Source of the DNA: Anaerolineae bacterium
Lineage (GTDB): Bacteria > Chloroflexota > Anaerolineae > Aggregatilineales > JAFGMM01
Direction: 5' to 3'
Assembly: GCA_027494055.1 (NCBI GenBank)
Contig: JAOSJO010000024.1
Location: 186,001-250,000 of the forward strand
Length of the DNA stretch: 64,000 nucleotides
Part shown: piece after piece, positions 53,197 to 64,000 of the stretch
Layout: each line of letters opens with the position of its first letter
Position numbering within the stretch: position 1 is the stretch's first letter
Made by a program: the position numbers and the translations under genes
The notes under the pieces: generated by a model
Database searches by the model: none
Seen by the model: the letters and a program-made list of their open reading frames with translations, nothing else
Told to the model about the DNA's origin: nothing

Positions 53197-54390
53197 CTAC
53201 TTCAATATCAACCCGCTCGCCATCAGCGTCCCCGCCTCGATGAGCAGGCGCGGGTGGGCCTTGAACAACGCCAGCGCCACCTGCCCCAGGTTCATCTCGC
53301 GCAGCGGCAGCTCAGAGGCCGTCTTCACCAGCGCGTTGAGTTGCGCCTCTTCCATCTTGATGAGGATTTTGCGCACCCGGTAGAGCGCGTCGTGCTGCCG
53401 GCCGAACTGCTTGCGCCAGCGCTTCTCGTACTCGCTGAGCCGCCTGGCCGAGACATCGCCCGCCTGCACCGCCTCCGCCCCGACCTGCGCCGCGATGTCG
53501 CCTGCGATCATGCCCAGGTTGATGCCGCCGGCGGTAAGCGGGTCGGCCTGATGCGCCGCGTCGCCGACGACCATCAGGCCGTCGGTCACCATCTGCTTGA
53601 GCGCGCCCGTGATCGGTATGCCGCCCACCACCACGCTGAGCACGCTCGCCTCCGGGAAGTAGGCGGTCCACGAAGCGGTCCAGGTAGGCGCGCGCGCTCA
53701 CCGCCGCCGCCTGGTCCGCGCCGATCACCAGCCCGACGTTAGCGGTGTCGTCGCCCTTCGGGAACACCCACGCATAGCCCCCGGCGCTAGCGACGGGCCG
53801 AGGTGGTACTGGCACTCGGTCTGGTCCACCATGTGGTTCACGCCGCTGAGCAGGTACTGGAACGCGCTGTAGTAGTCGCGCATCGGCGGGACGGTCTTCA
53901 GCCCCGCCCAGCGCGCCACCTGCGACTCGGTGCCGTCGGCGGCGATCACCAGCTTCGCCTTGACGGCGTAGTCCTTGCCCTGGCTGCGCGTCTTCACGCC
54001 CGCGACCGCGCCGTTCTCGTGCAGCAGGCCCACCGCGCTCGTCTTGGCGCGCACCTCTGCGCCGGCCTTCGCCGCCAGGTGCGCCAGCTCCCGGTCGAAG
54101 ACCTTCCGCTCCACGATCAGGGTCGGCTCGGTGGGCGGTACGCTCACGTGGTCGCCGGCCGAATTCCACACCGCATACGCGCTGATGTGCGCGTTGATCC
54201 AGCGTTCGTCCGGCTCGATGTAGGGGCGCAGCGACTCCGCGCCGACTGCCTCGGCGCACCGCACCAGCGAGCCGATCTCCTGGCGCTTGTCGATGAGCAG
54301 GACCGACATCCCGCGCGCCGCAGCGACGCGCGCCGCTGTGGACCCCGCCGGGCCGGCTCCGACGACCATCACGTCATACGCCGCCTTCAC
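53197..54390 (-). CDS. Geranylgeranyl-reductase-family FAD protein, frameshifted
   Basis: About 398 residues. N-terminal FAD Rossmann motif VVGAGPAGSTAARVAA, then KRQEIGSLVRCAEAVG typical of geranylgeranyl reductases, and later GDAAHQADPLTAGGINLGM (FAD/ribityl binding). Shifts lie near 53795 and 53660. Members reduce prenyl chains of lipids, chlorophylls or menaquinones. GTG 54390 is the start; it overlaps the ferredoxin stop (GTGA), so electrons probably come from that ferredoxin. The native substrate (menaquinone side chain or lipid) is inferred. Confidence 0.87.
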
Positions 54391-54605
54391 TGGGCCGCCT
54401 CCGCCATGGTGAGCGCGTGCACCGGGCACATCTTCGTGCAGCGCTCGCACGCGGTGCACGTCTCCTGGTCGATTGCCAGGAAGCTGTCCGTCAGGAAGAT
54501 CGCGTCGGGCGGGCAGACCGCCACGCACGCGCCGCAGTAGCAGCACAGTTCGTGATCCACGATCACCTTCAGCTCGGTCTGGTTGCGCACAGCAGCGTTG
54601 AGCAT
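54387..54605 (-). CDS. Small 2x[4Fe-4S] ferredoxin
   Basis: 72 residues with CCYCGACVAVCP and CTACERCTKMCP cluster motifs, i.e. a bacterial-type two-cluster ferredoxin. ATG 54605 gives the shortest sensible protein. Coupled to the geranylgeranyl-reductase gene by a 4-base overlap and likely its electron donor (a FixX-like role). Intact. Confidence 0.9.
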   Translation of the reverse strand: MLNAAVRNQTELKVIVDHELCCYCGACVAVCPPDAIFLTDSFLAIDQETCTACERCTKMCPVHALTMAEAAQ

Positions 54606-54746: not shown

Positions 54747-55466
54747 ATGGACGACGACAAAGTCAGGAAAGCCCGCCGCAGCCAGTTGCCCTCCAATGAA
54801 GCGCTGGACCGCATCCCGGTGGAGGAGCTGATCCAGGCCGCACGCGCGATGGAAGCGCGCCTGCGCGAGGCCAGCGAAGCCACACGCCGCCGCCTGGAGA
54901 TGGACCTGCGCGATGAGGCCATCGTCCAGAGCGGGCTGCGCATCGACAACGCCCCGCTGCCAATCCAGAAGTTCCTCAGCGGCGAGATCGACCTCGACAG
55001 CGAGTTGAGCCGGCGGTTCAATAACGCGCCGCTCCTGTCGTCCGCTACGTTCCGCCCCAAAGACGCCGGCGAGCCGGCGACCCGGTCCAGCGCCACCCTC
55101 GCCAGCCAGGACGGCGCGGCCTCGGTCACGTTTGAGATCATCGCCGGGGAGGGCAGCCCCACGACCGAGGTGGTCTTCGATCTCATGTCGATGGTCGCGC
55201 TGCGCTTCAACCTGCGCGGGCTGACCGAGACCGACCGGCGGCGCTGGCTGGACCTGATGCGCCGCGAGGACCGGGAAGGGAGCACGGCGTTCCTGTGGTC
55301 GGCGGCGCGCTGGCAGAGCGACTACCTCATCTTCGTGATGCGCGAGTACCACGTGCGCCTGTATGCCTTCTCGCCCCAACGCCACGAGGCCGCCGCCCGG
55401 CTCACCCGCCCTGTCGCCAACCAGCTCATCAACTGGCTGGACGCCCGCTGGTTCCCAGGCGGCTAG
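54747..55466 (+). CDS. Conserved-looking protein of unknown function
   Basis: 239 residues. The N-terminal 60 residues are charged and helical (VRKARRSQLPSNEALDRIP, then ELIQAARAMEARLREA) and could form a coiled coil. The C-terminal half has alternating hydrophobic pattern and a Trp/Tyr-rich end (SAARWQSDYLIFVMREYHV). No signal peptide, TM segment or known motif. GGGGAGG precedes ATG 54747. It faces away from the ferredoxin operon and leads, after 55 bases, into the epimerase gene. Intact; codon usage matches its surroundings. Confidence 0.72.
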   Translation: MDDDKVRKARRSQLPSNEALDRIPVEELIQAARAMEARLREASEATRRRLEMDLRDEAIVQSGLRIDNAPLPIQKFLSGEIDLDSELSRRFNNAPLLSSATFRPKDAGEPATRSSATLASQDGAASVTFEIIAGEGSPTTEVVFDLMSMVALRFNLRGLTETDRRRWLDLMRREDREGSTAFLWSAARWQSDYLIFVMREYHVRLYAFSPQRHEAAARLTRPVANQLINWLDARWFPGG

Positions 55467-55521
55467 GGGACCGCATCGCCTTACCTGCGCTCAGACCGGG
55501 ATCAACAAAGCGAGGTCATCC

Positions 55522-56574
55522 ATGCAACTCAGGACCGAAATCCTCACGCTGCATCTGCGCACGCCGTTCCGCATCGCGCACGGCGTAAGCGAGACCCGGC
55601 AAAGCGTGATCGTGTACCTGGAAGATGCGGTCGGCGAGGCCGCGCTTGCTCCCTACTACGGCGTCACGCCCGAACACGTCATCGCCTACCTGAGCGACCC
55701 GCGCGTCGAGGCGGCGCTCGACGGCGACCTGCTGCTGCGCGAGGACATCCTTGACCGGCTGCCTCCGGGCCCGATGCCGGCGCGCGCCGCCTGGACGTCG
55801 CCCTGCACGACTTCGCGGGCAAGCGCCTGGGCGCGCCGCTGTATCGGCTGTGGGGCCTCAACCTGGGCGGATGCCGCGCAGTTCCTTTACCATCAGCCAG
55901 GAGACAGACGAAGCCGCGCTGCGGCAGCGCCTCCACGAGGCGGCAGACTATCCAATTCTCAAGCTCAAGCTTGGCACAGGCGACCTCGACGCCGACCTGC
56001 GCATGGTGCGCATCGCCCGCGAAGCCACCAACGCGCAGCTCTGCGTGGACGCCAACGCGGGCTGGTCCGTGGACGAGGCCGCCGACATCATCCGCGCCTG
56101 GCCGGGTTTGGCCTGCTCTTCGTCGAACAGCCGCTCGCGCGCGACGACATCGCGGGTTGGCACAAACTCCGGGCGCGGCTGCCCGCCGACATGCCGCCCC
56201 CTGATCGCCGACGGGTCGGCGCACATGACAAAGGACATCCCCCCCGCTGGCCGGCGCTGCCGACGGTGTGAACATCAAGCTCGCCAAGTCGGGCGGCTCT
56301 CCGCGAGGCGTGGCGCATGGTCCAGGTGGCGCGCGCGTTCGACATGAAAGTGATGCTCGGCTGCATGGTCGAAAGCGCGGTCGGCGTGACCGCCGCCGGG
56401 CACCTTGCGCCGCTCGTCGATTTCGCGGACCTGGACGGCAACCTGCTTGTGTCGAACGACCCCTTCGACGGGCTGAGAATGCGGGCCGGGGAACTCGCGC
56501 TGCCGAATGATGCCGGCCTGGGCGTCAAGCGCGTGCTGCCCTCGGCGCATCCGGTCGAGCCGCAGATGAAGTAG
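55522..56574 (+). CDS. Enolase-superfamily (mandelate racemase/dipeptide-epimerase-like) enzyme, many frameshifts
   Basis: About 350 residues spread over several frames. The N-domain (LRTPFRIAHGVSETRQSVIV) and barrel motifs LKLKLGTGD (KxK acid-base lysines), CVDANAGWSV (metal Asp), FVEQPLARDD (metal Glu), ADGSAH and the late LGCMVES segment match the muconate-lactonizing/dipeptide-epimerase group. At least five shifts (about 55785, 55865, 56103, 56203, 56300) are needed within 800 bases, the worst density in the window. It may be a true pseudogene or several base errors; all active-site residues can be found. Confidence 0.72.
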
Positions 56575-56660
56575 CGCCGCGCCGCCGCGCGCGGGCGTCC
56601 TTGCGCTTTGAATTCGAAAACGTCAGAATAAGGGAACCGGCATAGTCAGAAGGTGCAGCC

Positions 56661-59600
56661 ATGCCGCTCCGTTCCCGCATACGTGCAACGGCCCGGAAGG
56701 CGTCCGACGCCGCGCCCCCGCAGGCGCTGGCCGCCGATCTGCGGGCGCGCGTCGGCCCCTACGCTGAGGTCATCACCAACGAGACCCGGCGCGACCTCTA
56801 CACGCGCGACCGTTCCGGGTGGCCGGCGTCCCCGGCGAAACGCCGGGACGCGCGCCCTGCGCTTGTGTTGAAGCCCGGCTCGGTCGAGGACATCGCTGCC
56901 GCTGTGGAATGGGCGCACGCGCACCGCGTACCCATCGTGCCGCGCGGCCTCTCGACCACGGCGCACGGCGAGTCCGTGCCGGCGTCCGGCGGCCTGCTCC
57001 TGGACCTGGCGCAGTTCAACCGCATCGGCCCGCTTGACCCCGACGCGCGCACCGTCCAGGTTGAGGCGGGCGTGACCTGGGGCGACCTGGATGCCTATCT
57101 GGAGCGGAGCGGGCTGACGCTCGCGACGTACCCGGCAAGCCGCTTTTCGACCGTGGGCGGCTGGGTCGCGACCGGCGGGCTGGGCGTCAACAGCTTCGGT
57201 TACGGGCACCTGCGGCGGTGGGTGGCTGCGCTGGAGGTCGTGACCGGCGCGGGCGAACGCCGGTCGCTCAACCCGCGCGACAAGCTCTTCGAGGCGTTTT
57301 TCGGCGCGGAGGGTGCGGTGGGGGTGGTGGCCGGCGTCACGCTGCGCCTGCGCCCCGCGCCGACGTTCAGCCTTGCGCACCTCTTCTACTTTGCATCGAC
57401 GGCGGACCAGATCGCCTTCGTCCGGTGGCTGATCGAAACTGAAACACAGGTCGCGCACCTCCAGCTCTACGACCCCCGTTTCATGGCGTACCAGAACCGC
57501 CTCTACGCCGAGTCGAACCCGGACCGCGCCCCGCTATACGACGCGCTGCCGGCGGCGCTCGTCCATGTCGACTCGGAGGCGCAGGAGCAGAAGCTGGAGG
57601 ATGTCCTCGCGCGCGCCGAGATGCTGGCGCGTGAGGGTCCGCGCTATGCGGCGGCGGCGCTCTGGCGGCAGCGTTTCTACCCGCTTGCGCTCAAGCGCTA
57701 CGGTCCCAGTCTGCTTACTGCCCCGGTCGCGGTGCCGGTCGCCAACGCCGCCGCGTTCCTGGACCGCGCCATGCGCCTGGGCGAGCGCTTCGGGCTTGCG
57801 CCGGCGGCGACTGCCGTGGTCGCGGAGAACGGCGGCCAGCACGAGGTGTTCGTGACGCCGCTCTTCCCCTGCGACGCGCGGCGGCGGCCCCATCGCTTCC
57901 ACACGCTGCTCATGCACCTGGTCACCGCTGAGGCGATCCGGCGCGGCGGGCGGCCCTATGCTGTTGGCGACGTGAACCGTCTCTTCGCGGAGAAGAAACT
58001 CGGCCCTGGCCGCTGGCGCATCATGCAGGCGCACCGGCGCGTGGTTGACCCCATCGGGGCATTCAACCCGCGCCCCGCGCCGGGGTGGGGCGCGGCCCTC
58101 CAGCGCATGGCGCTCCGCGTCGCCCGCGTGCTTGCCGCGCAGATCGGCCAGTTCGCGCGGATGCTGCACGGCGCGCGCACGCCGCCGCCAGCGCCGCCGC
58201 GCCCCCGGAGCAGCCCGCTCAGCGACGCCGAACTCCACGCGACGATCAACGCCTGCACCGGCTGCGGTTCGTGCGTGCCCGTGTGCCCCGCCTACCTCGT
58301 CACGCACGACGAGGCCACGACCGGGCGCGCCAAGCTCCAGACCGGGCTGCGTGTGCTCCAGGGGGAGACCGTGAGCGAGGTCCGCGCGGAGGCGACATTC
58401 CTCTGCACCTATTGCGGCGCGTGCCAGAACGTTTGCGAGGCGGAACTGCCTTTGCTGGCGGCGTACATGACCATCGAGGCGCAGCTCGCGGCGCAGCATG
58501 GCCGCCCCGACGCCCGCATTGCGGACTTCGTCGCCAGGGTTGAGTCCAGCGCCGCTTACAAGCGTTTCGCGGGCGTGCCCCCGATCCCCGCGCGCTCGGG
58601 TCAGGGCGGCGCGCAACAGCCGCCGCACGCGGCGCCCACCGATGGCGGCGCGACGGCGCGCCGCACGCCCGTTGGCCCCTTTCACGTGGCGCGCTCCGAG
58701 CACTGCATCAACTGCGGGCACTGCGCCCACGTGTGCCCGGTGGAGGTCCACAGCCGGCGCGCCGACGATGTGCGGCTGATGGCGCAGCCGGTCAGCCACC
58801 AGTGCGTGGGGTGTATGCGCTGCGTGGAGGAATGTCCTACCCGCGCGCTGACGGTAAGCCCATCGACCGCCTACGGCGCGATGGGGCAGGGCGTCTTCAG
58901 TGCCGGGGTGGTCCAGCGCCTGGCCCGCCTGGCCGAGACCGGTGCACAGGACCCGGCGGCGCGCGGAGCCGGCGCGCCGAACCTCCGCGTCACGTTGGGC
59001 CGCCGGCTTGAGCGCGTGGAGATCGACGCGGACGGCGCGCTGAAGCCCGCGTATCGCCCGCCCGCCGTCGAACTCGCGGCCCCGATCATCATGACCCTGC
59101 CCCGCATGGCGGCGCGCCGGCGGTCCCAACCGGGGGCCTCGCCGAGGCCCCTCACCGGGGCTATCGCAGAGGCCGCGCGCCGGTTGGGGCTGCTGGCCCT
59201 CCTGGACTGGGACGGGACTCCGCCCGCGCCGGCGGTGGCGCTGCGGGTCGCGGCGGGCCAGCGCGACGCGCTGTTGCAGGCCGCCGGGTCGTTTGCGGAC
59301 GCGCGCCTGCTGGTCGTCGAGCGCCTGGAGGGGGGAGGCAGCCGGGCTGCGCACCCGTTGCCCGGCGCTGGCGCTCGCCGCCGAGGCGCCGCTCGACCCC
59401 GCCGCCGCCGACACGGCGGTGAAGCTGGCGCACGTCGGCGCGGACGCCATCATCCTGAACGGGCGCGACGGACTCCAGGAGGGCCATCCCACAGACATTG
59501 CCCGATATTTACCGGAGGTTCACGAGGCGCTGGCCGCCATCTCGCGCCGCGAGCGCGTGAGCCTGGTCGTGCGCGGCGGCATCGCGGCGGCGGAGGATGT

Positions 59601-59943
59601 GGTCGAGGCCATCATGCTTGGCGCGGACGCCGTCATCGTCGATTGGCCCCTGCTGATCGCGCTGGAGTGCCGCCTGCAAGAGGGCTGCGTGGAGGGCGCG
59701 CACGTCTGCGGGGTGGACGCGGTTGACGCGGACTGGGCCACGCAGCGCCTTGTCAACCTGCTGGCGGCCTGGATGGACCACCTTCGGCAGGCGCTGGGCG
59801 CGCTCGGCGTCGATGACGTGGAACGGCTGCGCGGCGCACGCGGGCGCGCTGCTGCGGAGGCGGCAGCCCGCGCCGGCGCGCCGGGCGGCCTGCGCCACGT
59901 AACCGATCCATCCGTTTCGTTGGCCCACGTATTGGGGAGGTAG
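56661..59943 (+). CDS. Giant fusion: GlcD-like FAD oxidase + Fe-S modules + glutamate-synthase-like FMN domain, one frameshift
   Basis: About 1094 residues. Residues of about 60-210 form an FAD_binding_4 (PCMH) domain (ALVLKPGSVEDIAAAVEWA, STVGGWVATGGLG), followed by the oxidase cap to about 480. A GlcF-like pair follows (CTGCGSCVPVCP, about 533; CTYCGACQNVC, about 579), then a second pair (CINCGHCAHVCP, CVGCMRCVEECP, about 675-720). The rest is a GltS-like FMN barrel: GADAIILNGRDGLQEGHPTDI, RGGIAAAEDVVEAIMLGAD, then C-x5-C-x6-C resembling the 3Fe-4S ligands. A shift in a G6 run near 59335 divides the barrel. Probably oxidises a 2-hydroxy acid or amino compound and passes electrons through the clusters. 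First gene of the terminal operon. Confidence 0.85.
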
Positions 59944-59956
59944 CAGCATCCAGACC

Positions 59957-60382
59957 ATGGACAGTCAGGACGCGACGGCGCGCGAACTTCCGCTTTTCTA
60001 CCATGTGCGCTTGCGCCCCGCGAGCGAGGAGGCGGTGCTGGGCGACGACATGCGCGAGCGCTTCCGCCAGGTGGTCGAGCAGATCGCCGGGCGGGAGGGC
60101 TTCGAGGTCGTGGTAATGTCGGCAGGCGCGAATTTCGTGCAGTTCATCCTCGGCAACCTCGGCGCGCGCGACCTGGACGCGCTGGTCAGCACGATCAAGC
60201 AGGAGACCGCGCGCGGCATCCTGGCAGGCTGGCCGATGCTGGCGCACTTCGCGCCAGAGGGCGACTTCTGGGACGAGGGATTCCTGTACACGTGCCACAA
60301 TGCCGCGACGATTGAGGCGGCGCTGGACTACATCAAGCGGCACGGCGACGTCGATCTGTTTGGTCCGCCGGACGCGCCATGA
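59957..60382 (+). CDS. IS200/REP-type Y1-transposase-like protein without HUH motif
   Basis: 141 residues whose helix-strand pattern follows the Y1 (TnpA/RAYT) transposase: LFYHVRLRPASEEAVLG at the start, a central strand VVVMSAGANFVQFILG, then STIKQETARGIL, a WDEGFLYTCHNAATIEAALDYIK end. Where transposases have H-x-H, this has Phe60 and Gln62, so the metal site is lost; Tyr125 at the catalytic position is kept. It lies 13 bases after the fusion gene and overlaps the next start by 4 bases (ATGA), in the middle of a metabolic operon, with no transposon ends seen. A domesticated DNA/RNA-binding or structural protein is likely. The similarity was judged by eye. Confidence 0.6.
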   Translation: MDSQDATARELPLFYHVRLRPASEEAVLGDDMRERFRQVVEQIAGREGFEVVVMSAGANFVQFILGNLGARDLDALVSTIKQETARGILAGWPMLAHFAPEGDFWDEGFLYTCHNAATIEAALDYIKRHGDVDLFGPPDAP

Positions 60383-61695
60383 TCGAGATCGAGCGCCGGT
60401 CCACGCACCAGCCCCCACAGCGACCCCGGCACGCCATCGGGCCGTGGCGGCCAGCCGTCGCGCGCACCTGTATCGACTGCGGCCTGTGCGTGTCGGTCTG
60501 CCCGACGGACGTGTTCTTCTTCGCGCCTGGGCGGCGGCGTCTCGCAGCGCCGCGCGCCGAGGCCTGCCTGGGGCCGGACGCCTGCGGCGTGTGCGTGCCG
60601 GCCTGCCCCGCCGACGCCATTACGATCCCGCCAAACCCGAACTGGTCGAGCCTCGGCAACGCCGAGTGGACCAACGCGATGATCGCCTCGACCTGGGAGG
60701 CCGGGGCGCACGGCGCGCTGAGCCGCGAGGACCCCGTCGCGATTGGGGAGAGCGGTGACGGGTTTGACCAGATGGGCCTCATCGCGCCGGAGGGCGTGCC
60801 CTTGCTCATCCCGGACGAGGTTGACCTGCGCGTGCCGCTGCACCATCGCGGCCGGCAGGTGTGGATTGAGTTTCCCGTCATCGGTGGGGCGGTCGAGGCT
60901 GGCGCCGTGAGCGCGCCGGTGACGCTAGGCCGGGCGATGGCGGCGCGCGCGCTTGGCATCCTCAGCGTGGCCCCGGCGAGGGCGCTGGCGGGGCGCGGAG
61001 CGCGCTACCGCGAGAACCTGGCGCTGCCGCTGGACGACCGGCCCGACGGCGCTGCGCTCGCGGACCTTGCCCGCGCTGCCGCGATCACGCTGCGCTACCC
61101 CGCCGCGCCCGACCTCTGTGGGCTGAGCGACCTGAAGCAGCGGCTTGGCTGGCTGCAGATCCTCAACCCCGGCGCGCTCCTCATCGTCGAGGTGGACGCC
61201 ACCTCGGACGCGCCGGAGGTCGCCGTCGGCGTCGCGCACGCCGGCGCGCACGTCGTCCACCTGCGCCGCCCGCCCGCCGGCGCTCCCCTTGCCTACACGA
61301 TCAACCCGGTCCATCGCGGCCTCCAGGCCGAAGGCGTGCGCGACCAGGTGGCCGTTATCGCCAGCGGCGGCGTCCGAACCCCTCATGACGCCCTCAAGGC
61401 GGTCGCCCTGGGTGCGGACGCCTGCGCCATCGCCACCGCCGCGCTGGTTGCGCTGGGCTGCATCCCGCCGCGCGACCCTGGCGGCGCGCTGGCCGGTCCG
61501 CCCGGCGTCATCGCCGACGCGCCGTCGTTTGCCGCCCTTGTCGATCCCCGGTGGGTCGCGCGCACCACCGTCAACCTGGTCCTCGCCTGGGCTGCGGAGT
61601 GGCGGCGCGCGCTGGCGGTCATGGGTCTGCCGGACGTGCGCGCGCTGCGCGGTCGCACCGACCTGCTCGCCGTGGTCGGCCAGCAGCCGGCGTGA
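60379..61695 (+). CDS. Ferredoxin/glutamate-synthase-like FMN-domain protein
   Basis: 438 residues. The N-terminus has 4Fe-4S motifs (CIDCGLCVSVCP near residue 31; a second with CLGPDACGVCVPACP near 63-77). A GltS-like FMN barrel follows: PVIGGAVEAGAVSAP, GWLQILNPGALLIVEVDATSD, then ASGGVRTPHDALKAVALGADA, AALVALGC. Unlike the first FMN domain it keeps only one of the three cysteines for the 3Fe-4S cluster. It is the paralogue of the C-terminal part of the fusion protein, and the two may form a heterodimer. Translationally coupled to the Y1-like gene. Intact. Confidence 0.82.
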   Translation: MIEIERRSTHQPPQRPRHAIGPWRPAVARTCIDCGLCVSVCPTDVFFFAPGRRRLAAPRAEACLGPDACGVCVPACPADAITIPPNPNWSSLGNAEWTNAMIASTWEAGAHGALSREDPVAIGESGDGFDQMGLIAPEGVPLLIPDEVDLRVPLHHRGRQVWIEFPVIGGAVEAGAVSAPVTLGRAMAARALGILSVAPARALAGRGARYRENLALPLDDRPDGAALADLARAAAITLRYPAAPDLCGLSDLKQRLGWLQILNPGALLIVEVDATSDAPEVAVGVAHAGAHVVHLRRPPAGAPLAYTINPVHRGLQAEGVRDQVAVIASGGVRTPHDALKAVALGADACAIATAALVALGCIPPRDPGGALAGPPGVIADAPSFAALVDPRWVARTTVNLVLAWAAEWRRALAVMGLPDVRALRGRTDLLAVVGQQPA

Positions 61696-61712
61696 GGTCG
61701 GCGCGATCCGCC

Positions 61713-64000
61713 ATGCCTGCGCACACCCCCGCGCCACCGGACCACGCGCCGCCGTCCAGCCCGGTGGATGGCGGGCTGGTCGGGATCGCCAGCACCCTGC
61801 CGGTTTCGGGCCGTCCCACCATCGAGGCGCTGAGCCGGCTGCGCTGGCGCGGCAACGGGCGCAGCGGCGGCGTCGCCGTGGCCGGGTGCTTTCCCGTAGG
61901 GCTGGCCGACGTCTGTGCGCTCAACATCGCGCTGAGCGCGCGGCACCTGCGCGCCGAGATCGAGCGGGAATTCATCGCGCCGCATTTCGACATCGTGGAA
62001 GCCGAGTTTCAGCCGGACCTGGGCGATTTTCGCGCGCTGGCCGGCCTCCCCAGTCGGCCGCCGGTGGTGGTGCGCTATTTCGTCCGCGCCCGGCAGGACG
62101 CACTCGCCGAGTTCGCCGCACAGCAGGGCCTCGCCGCCCTCGACCGGGCGGAGGACGAGTTCGTCTACTGGAGCGCGACCCGCATCAACCGCGCGCTCTA
62201 CACCGGCCACCCGGAGCGGCGCGCGTTCGTCCTCAGCTATGGGCGCGACCTGATGATCCTGCGAGCCGCTGGCTACGCCGAGGACGTGGCGCGCTACTAT
62301 CGCCTCGACGAGATGCCTGCGCACGTCTGGCTCGGCCACCAGAGTTACGCCACGCGGACCGAACCGGCCGGCGCGAATCCCTTCCCCGCTGTGGACGTGG
62401 CGGCGGCCCTGAGCGGCGGCCTGGTCAACTACGACGCCCTGGCGACCTACGTCCGGCAGCGCGGGTACCTCCCGCTTTTCCGTTCGGACGCCGAGCTAAC
62501 CGCCGCGTTGTTCGACTTCTACCGCCGCGCGTGCGCCTACCCGCTCGACCTGGCGCTGGAAGCGCTCTATCCGACGCCGCGAGACGGCCTCGGCGGCGCG
62601 CCTCAGGCCCGGCGTGAGGCGTACCGCGCGGTCCAGCGCACGCACGTACACGGCGCGCTGGCGGGCCGCGTTGCTTTTGCGGTGGCGCGCGCCTGCCGTG
62701 AGGCGCGCGGCTGGGAACTCATCGCCGCCATCGACCCGGAGCGGCAACACGCCCACGCATTTGGGCTGCAAGAAGGCACGCTCTGGGGCGGGGAGCGCTA
62801 TGGCGTGGGCGTGGTCGCGTCTGAGCTGCAGGCGGTGGAGGCTGTCTTTGCCGCCATCGCCGAGGAGCAGAGCGCCGTGTGCCCCATCCCGGACAAGACC
62901 TGGAGCGCAGGCAGCCTGGATGGCGACTTCGCCGGAAGCGCCGCCGGGGGCGCCATTGGCGGCGCTGCATACAGCTTCACCGTCGCCCCTCAGGAAGACG
63001 GCGGCCTGCGGCTGTGGTGCGCCGACCGGTACGGGCGCGCCATCACGACCGACCGGGCGCGGATGCACCGCGACCCCCGGTATGCCTCGGCTGCGCCGTC
63101 CGAGCTTGACCCCTCGCCCGCTGAGGTCGCCGCCACCCTGCGCACGGATGACGTCGATTCGGCCTACGCGCGGGCGCGCGCGGCGGTCCGGGAATGGGGC
63201 TTCATCCTCCTCGGAAGCTGGCTCGATGGGGTTGTGACCCTGGCTGCGTCGGACCCGGCGCTGCGCTGGCCGGCGATCCAGTTGCTCACCTGGCTCCATG
63301 ACCGGCCCATAGACATCGGCGTCAAGAAGCGGAGCGCGGCGCTGGCGATGCTGCGCCGGGGGCTGGAGGTGCTGTTCCAACGCGCCCGCAGCCGACGTCG
63401 GCGAGTCCGACCCCGGCGACCTGGACCGCCGCCTGACGTGGGTGACGCTCGCCACGCGCGGCGCGCCGACGCCCACAAGCGGGCGGCTCTACATCGACGC
63501 CGCCAACCTGCCGCCCGACGGCGGCGACAGCGTGGCGCAGGTGCTCATCCGGGTGTGCCGCGCGGGCTGGCGCAACATCGTCATCTTCGGTTGCAAAGGC
63601 GACCGCTTTGTCGGCAGCGGGCTGGGGCCAGACGGCAGCGGCCTGCGCGTGGACATCTACGGGACGCCGGGTGATTATCTTGCCGCCGGCCTCGACGGGG
63701 CAGAGGTTCACGTGCACGGCGCGGCGCAGGACATGGTTGGCTACATGATGGCCGGGGGACGCTCGTGATCTATGGCGATGCCGGCCAAGCATTCCTGTAC
63801 GGGGCCAGCGGCGGCGAGGCCTATGTGCTGGGCGCGCCCGGCGCGCGTGCGTGCCTCAATGCCGGGGGACGCTCCGCGTGGCGACGCGCGCCGGCGCGGA
63901 GGTGATCGACTTCGCCCACCCTGACGCCGGCCCGGAACACATACAGGCGATGCAGCGCAAGGCGGCGGCGTTCTTTGGCCGGCCCGCCGGCGAGGACGCC
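61713..64000 (+). CDS. Amidotransferase-like (class II, apparently inactive) + GXGXG domain protein, partial, frameshifted
   Basis: At least 760 residues, cut off by the window end. The first domain follows class-II glutamine amidotransferases: GGLVGIAS, LRWRGNGRSGGVAV, WLGHQSYAT, then GGLVNYDALATYVRQRGYLPLF. The catalytic Cys is replaced (Gly20), and the usual GHTRY-type Arg and HNGE motif are missing, so glutamine hydrolysis is unlikely. After a linker, the beta-helix GXGXG domain of glutamate synthase follows (VDIYGTPGDYLAAGLDG, VHGAAQDMVGYMMAGG, VIYGDAGQAFLYGASGG). Shifts lie near 63380, 63757 and 63867; the last two occur in an identical 14-base context. Likely third subunit of the same complex. 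Confidence 0.8.

Follow-up and report, generated by a model that had tools for sequence, protein, structure and literature searches.

What becomes of a glutamate synthase (GltS) in a lineage in which both of its active sites have been lost? The question is raised by an operon of four genes, here called A, B, C, and D, in an Anaerolineae bacterium of the Chloroflexota (assembly GCA_027494055.1; genome of 5.7 Mb). The window analysed is a stretch of 64,000 nucleotides (positions 186,001 to 250,000) of the 648-kb contig JAOSJO010000024.1; all four genes lie on its + strand, beginning at 56661 and ending a few nucleotides outside it. Glutamate synthase has a central place in nitrogen assimilation, and the forms characterised take their reducing power from ferredoxin or NAD(P)H. 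All of its modules are present here over three genes (A, C, and D), together with a fused oxidase of the type that binds flavin adenine dinucleotide (FAD) and six [4Fe-4S] motifs (Table 1). Our preferred explanation, to which we assign a probability of roughly 55%, is that the operon descends, with later changes and partial fusion, from a split glutamate synthase and likely encodes an FAD-dependent dehydrogenase feeding an iron-sulfur wire on a dead scaffold.

An earlier, sequence-only reading of the locus had proposed that a GlcD-fold FAD oxidase and additional ferredoxin pairs are fused into a glutamate synthase scaffold, which the Pfam domains bear out, and that the amidotransferase active site is lost, which is confirmed by alignment. 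Gene D gave Pfam matches to GATase_6-like (7e-4) and GXGXG (6e-4) domains. Its glutaminase cysteine motif, EGGCGV in ancestors, reads DGGLVG in the window, AGGLVG in a genome of the sister genus (G001), and EGGGFLG in another relative (G006); the HNGD motif of the glutamine site, ALVHNGDFANY, has become AAALSGGLVNY in the window, with matching losses in both relatives. In gene C, barrel 2 is Glu_synthase-like (Pfam 4e-21, matching in its C-terminal half only), and the loops MSxGS, TGEGG, AQGAKPG, and GGTGA are missing, by alignment, in all three genomes; they are kept in E. coli GltB, in the genome's own GltB, in a genome of the same class (G133), and in the other relatives shown. One of the three cysteines of the 3Fe-4S triad is left in the window, none in G001, and all three in G006. 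Because the glutaminase cysteine, the HNGD motif, the barrel-2 loops for flavin mononucleotide (FMN) and 2-oxoglutarate, and the 3Fe-4S cysteines are gone, neither glutamate synthase reaction, nor any conventional reaction at an FMN site, would be expected in the window lineage. AlphaFold models of D (mean predicted local distance difference test score, pLDDT, 79; predicted template modelling score, pTM, 0.77; best Foldseek match GltS 6s6s) and of C (mean pLDDT 78; pTM 0.82; best Foldseek matches in the PDB also GltS) were built from alignments containing intact relatives, so they lean towards the GltS fold.

Barrel 1 of gene A is likewise Glu_synthase-like (Pfam 8e-15 in the continuing frame) and aligns along most of its length with the central domain of GltS; by profile comparison (hhalign) it is nearer to the FMN barrels. 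That domain is itself described as a barrel cut short, which may have arisen from the FMN domain (PMC8097209). The FMN and 2-oxoglutarate loops were absent from barrel 1 in every relative inspected, and barrel 1 looks like the equivalent of that non-catalytic domain. It was rejected as a second FMN enzyme for the same two reasons, the missing loops and the match to the central domain. By these alignments the description of "two FMN barrels" is an overstatement, and in the window lineage a working FMN site would not be expected in either barrel; the earlier idea of a reaction in an FMN barrel is not upheld.

The iron-sulfur motifs have fared differently: every one of the 24 cysteines in the six 4Fe-4S motifs is kept in the window. 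Also kept, by alignment, are the FAD pyrophosphate loop and an FSTVGGW motif in the PCMH-type FAD domain of gene A, and the FAD site is most likely the sole catalytic centre of the predicted complex. As to its substrate, the Zn ligands and catalytic histidine are strictly conserved across D-2-hydroxyglutarate dehydrogenase (D-2-HGDH), D-lactate dehydrogenase (D-LDH), and GlcD (PMC7801405), and E. coli GlcD carries them as GDGNxH and GEHG. The corresponding His/His/Glu ligands and catalytic His are absent from the window protein and from the operon FAD oxidases aligned with it, which share a different signature (CDxR, and PYGxGxWN in split forms) that is partly kept in the window. Given this absence, the oxidation of a 2-hydroxy acid, as originally suggested, is unproven. 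The cysteine-rich (CCG) domain of GlcF was not detected in the operon, and none of the genes flanking the locus in G001, G006, G133, and the window hinted at a substrate. In the tree of FAD oxidases, those from operons, together with GlcD/GlcF-like fusions, split from E. coli GlcD with support of 100/99, and in the best tree the operon sequences by themselves form one group with weak support of 64/54. The matches of about 1040 amino acids that join FAD oxidase to Fe-S modules are GlcD/GlcF-like fusions, with no adjoining GltS genes in the two loci read.

How old and how general is the inactive state? Genes A, C, and D are adjacent in G001 as intact open frames of 1140 (locus L014), 483, and 837 amino acids. 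The four-gene order proposed by the sequence-only reading thus stands for A, C, and D; gene B occupies its place between A and C in the window genome only. In G006, A is split over contig ends and C is present. The expected distinct clade was recovered: in the tree of D proteins, in which the root is arbitrary and G006 forms a long branch, the window, G001, and G006 group at 100/100, near G133 and apart (100/100) from the three-gene, MgsABC-like type. Since the same losses occur in three genera, the inactive state has persisted. In G133 we found a fused A of 1230 amino acids, a C whose FMN barrel is complete, a gene for glutamine synthetase (L106:246-1637, minus strand), and then D, which keeps its catalytic cysteine in an N-terminal EGGCGV; this arrangement is intermediate between the intact ancestor and the window lineage. 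In about 20 other genomes of the class, D follows either a double-barrel protein or separate genes for the barrels, with no adjoining FAD oxidase. A second D with an intact EGGCGV was observed in G001, along with separate intact barrel genes on another contig (L018:325-2868, L073:125-2876); these probably make up a split glutamate synthase that still works, alongside the inactive one. The window genome encodes a canonical GltB elsewhere, which would have freed the operon from GltS function.

The intact ancestor came into view through wider searches. A scan of genome contigs with the window D as single query gave no matches; with the D alignment as query, 339 relatives were found in GTDB species genomes, of which 80 loci were kept for the counts that follow. 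Two genomes of another class (G807 and G669) carry four adjacent genes, encoding an FAD oxidase with Fe-S motifs (614 amino acids), a ferredoxin-barrel 1 protein, a ferredoxin-FMN barrel protein, and D. Split four-gene operons with intact amidotransferase and FMN sites were found in other classes, other phyla, and archaea, and the window lineage keeps their module order (FAD oxidase/Fe-S, ferredoxin/barrel 1, ferredoxin/FMN barrel, GATase/GXGXG). The FAD oxidase lies upstream in 20 of the 80 loci, from Dehalococcoidia, Syntrophaceae/Smithella, Syntrophomonas, Opitutia, Methanocella, and ANME-1, a group of anaerobic methanotrophic (ANME) archaea. Its place is taken in 24 of the 80 by MetF, a methylene-tetrahydrofolate (THF) reductase, usually with MvhD and often with MetV; no locus of the 80 holds both. 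MetF (usually with MvhD/FlpD, often with MetV) stands directly upstream of an intact split GltS, about 3-5 kb before D, in L144, L162, L172, L179, L183, L186, and others, which suggests a direct electron link from MetF to GltS in such loci. Glutamine synthetase is present in 11 of the 80 loci; it adjoins the FAD oxidase operon in L109, L145, and L181. Mainly because FAD oxidase and MetF are mutually exclusive in one slot and glutamine synthetase lies nearby, we interpret the FAD oxidase as the part through which electrons enter a glutamate synthase; to judge from gene content, the intact ancestor is a GltS of nitrogen assimilation that receives its electrons by a non-standard route. Downstream of the G807 split operon (L085:69-3572, minus strand) we also noted genes resembling HisH and HisF, a GXGXG protein standing on its own, and a nitrogen regulator of the NrpR type. 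No description of a GltS linked to FAD oxidase or MetF was found in the literature searched (open-licence papers only), and this modular class is apparently widespread and undescribed.

The proposed mechanism is as follows. In the intact ancestor, the FAD-oxidase/Fe-S subunit (elsewhere MetF with MvhD, often MetV) would very likely be the electron donor. By analogy with GltS (PMC8097209), electrons would pass from FAD through ferredoxin-type [4Fe-4S] clusters and the 3Fe-4S cluster to FMN, where 2-iminoglutarate, the product of 2-oxoglutarate and ammonia released from glutamine, would be reduced. The window lineage has lost the glutaminase and FMN/synthase sites to decay and keeps the FAD module, the [4Fe-4S] motifs, and the scaffold domains. 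We infer that the products still form a complex, in which the Fe-S wire would carry electrons from a substrate oxidised at FAD to some acceptor, and the inactive amidotransferase, barrel, and beta-helix domains would provide the assembly scaffold. Put in its full form, the proposal is of a conserved pseudo-GltS that lost both active sites, was retained to carry an FAD dehydrogenase with a new specificity and to wire it through six clusters, and arose within the widespread modular class fed by FAD oxidase or MetF; this more specific version we hold tentatively, at somewhat less than even odds.

The main rival is that the operon is a decaying relic, a split GltS that lost its sites after a one-piece canonical GltB took over and that has no present function. 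Several observations weigh against our explanation or are compatible with this rival. Branches are long, the window copy has frameshifts, the GXGXG C-terminus is truncated in G001, and D is not adjacent to C in G006 but lies elsewhere in that genome. Differences between the window and G001 peak at third codon positions, with a ratio of non-synonymous to synonymous differences (pN/pS) of 0.36-0.62 and its minimum in GXGXG and ferredoxin 2, in a comparison where pS is near saturation; this speaks for constraint, but the values exceed the 0.10 of an intact, less diverged reference pair and fit progressive decay too. Even FAD catalysis is putative. Decay accounts poorly, however, for the full-length open frames of G001, the complete set of cluster cysteines, the identity of about 70% to G001 in ferredoxin 2 and GXGXG (the most conserved parts), and losses common to three genera. 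On our explanation, the FAD module, the six [4Fe-4S] motifs, and all scaffold domains remain under constraint in the window lineage, and we regard a functionless relic as rather unlikely.

An active redox complex, in which a 2-hydroxy acid or amine is oxidised at FAD and coupled to a different reaction at an FMN barrel, would make use of the conserved FAD and ferredoxin modules and of a barrel 2 still predicted to fold; it is improbable given a barrel 2 stripped of its loops and 3Fe-4S cysteines in the window and G001, a barrel 1 without loops in all inspected relatives, and an FAD oxidase without the Zn/His signature. Very improbable is an enzyme still GltS-like, with a rearranged active site using free ammonia or another amine: all GltS domains are retained and G006 has its 3Fe-4S cysteines, but the AQGAKPG, TGEGG, and GGTGA loops are absent in the window, G001, and G006 alike. 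That the active sites are in truth intact, and only appear lost through sequencing errors, has a negligible chance. Frameshifts do occur in the window copy, but the losses lie within uninterrupted stretches and recur in the independent genomes G001 and G006, which refute this candidate.

The frameshifts themselves number about four, at 59.32-59.44, ~63.38, ~63.76, and ~63.87 kb, as placed by tblastn against the intact G001 homologue: one in gene A (between about 59321 and 59437) and the others in gene D (near 63377, 63760, and 63870). Runs of five or six G adjoin three of them, and the adjoining genes show the same breakage, so that an assembly error is likely. These neighbours, a gene for an FAD protein resembling geranylgeranyl reductase, which has a ferredoxin motif next to it (53197-54546, minus strand), and an enolase-superfamily gene (55363-56574, plus strand), are each split over several frames, which points to indel errors in the contig. 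The G+C content over the operon (window 56001-64000) is 72.5-73%, as compared to 59-67% in the remaining window. Gene B overlaps the start of gene C, is missing between A and C in G001, and has one weak relative (28%) in G049. Its product lacks the HUH histidines (ANFVQF, where the solved TnpA 2xm3 has DHVHLL). The suggestion that this transposase-like protein is a subunit was rejected on these grounds, its occurrence at this place in the window genome only and the missing histidines; it is probably outside the complex.

Table 1. Features of the operon, in window coordinates.
Feature	Position	Strand	Evidence
Gene A, single fusion protein: FAD oxidase, GlcF-like 2x[4Fe-4S], ferredoxin 2x[4Fe-4S], barrel 1	56661..59943	+	Pfam; intact homologues
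FAD oxidase domains FAD_binding_4 and FAD-oxidase_C	56856..58073	+	Pfam 1e-35 and 2e-12
GlcF-like 4Fe-4S motif pair of gene A, CTGCGSCVPVCP / CTYCGACQNVCE	58236..58448	+	Pfam and sequence
Ferredoxin pair 1 of gene A, CINCGHCAHVCP / CVGCMRCVEECP	58695..58853	+	Pfam and sequence
Barrel 1 (putative GltS central-domain equivalent), cut by frameshift	58968..59820	+	hhalign and alignment
Gene B, Y1_Tnp (IS200-type) protein	59957..60382	+	Pfam 5e-11
Gene C, ferredoxin pair 2 and barrel 2 from GltS FMN/synthase domain	60379..61695	+	Pfam, alignment, model
Ferredoxin pair 2 of gene C, CIDCGLCVSVCP / CLGPDACGVCVPACP; eight Cys intact	60457..60627	+	Pfam, alignment
Gene D, class-II amidotransferase-fold domain, linker, GXGXG beta-helix	61713..64000 (stop ~64,006, beyond window)	+	Pfam, model
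GXGXG domain of D	63442..63900	+	Pfam

Among known systems, GltB and ferredoxin-dependent GltS (1ea0, 1ofd, 7mfm) gave the best Foldseek and PDB sequence matches and share the amidotransferase, central barrel, FMN-type barrel, and GXGXG beta-helix. The window operon differs in dividing these modules among three proteins, one of which links GATase straight to GXGXG, in adding the FAD oxidase and three 4Fe-4S motif pairs, in having no GltD, and in the lost motifs described above. The split operons of syntrophs, Dehalococcoidia, and ANME-1 have the same four modules in the same order, with every domain directly homologous; there the FAD oxidase is a separate protein and the GATase and FMN sites are live, whereas the window has a fused A and dead sites. 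Exchanged input subunits are known in putative F420-dependent glutamate synthases, FGltS (PMC3448663; ANME FrhB10 clusters, PMC9012536). The concept is the same, but the FGltS input is an FrhB/Fsr-N homologue, in place of which stands an FAD oxidase here and MetF/MvhD/MetV in other relatives; no FrhB domain was found by Pfam among the operon genes scanned. MgsABC/GlxBCD-type and archaeal three-gene enzymes (short family L051-L056) share GATase, GXGXG, and ferredoxin-FMN barrel modules, but as separate GATase and GXGXG proteins, with neither second barrel nor FAD oxidase, in contrast to the GATase-GXGXG fusion of the window D. GlcD/GlcF, D-LDH, and D-2-HGDH share the FAD_binding_4 fold, with a GlcF-like Fe-S pair in the window A; they differ in the Zn/His signature and the CCG domain.

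The window complex offers a natural experiment on what stays useful in a glutamate synthase once both reactions are lost. Intact relatives of it are found widely among anaerobes, apparently with interchangeable electron-supplying modules, and they suggest two further electron inputs to GltS: an FAD oxidase, and a methylene-THF reductase module of MetF, MvhD, and MetV. Which partner exchanges electrons with MetVF in the cell has yet to be settled (PMC8760232), and the MetF-linked GltS operons provide a testable candidate. If the two suggested inputs are real, nitrogen assimilation would be tied directly to the oxidation of C1 compounds or organic acids in syntrophs, sulfate reducers, and ANME archaea.

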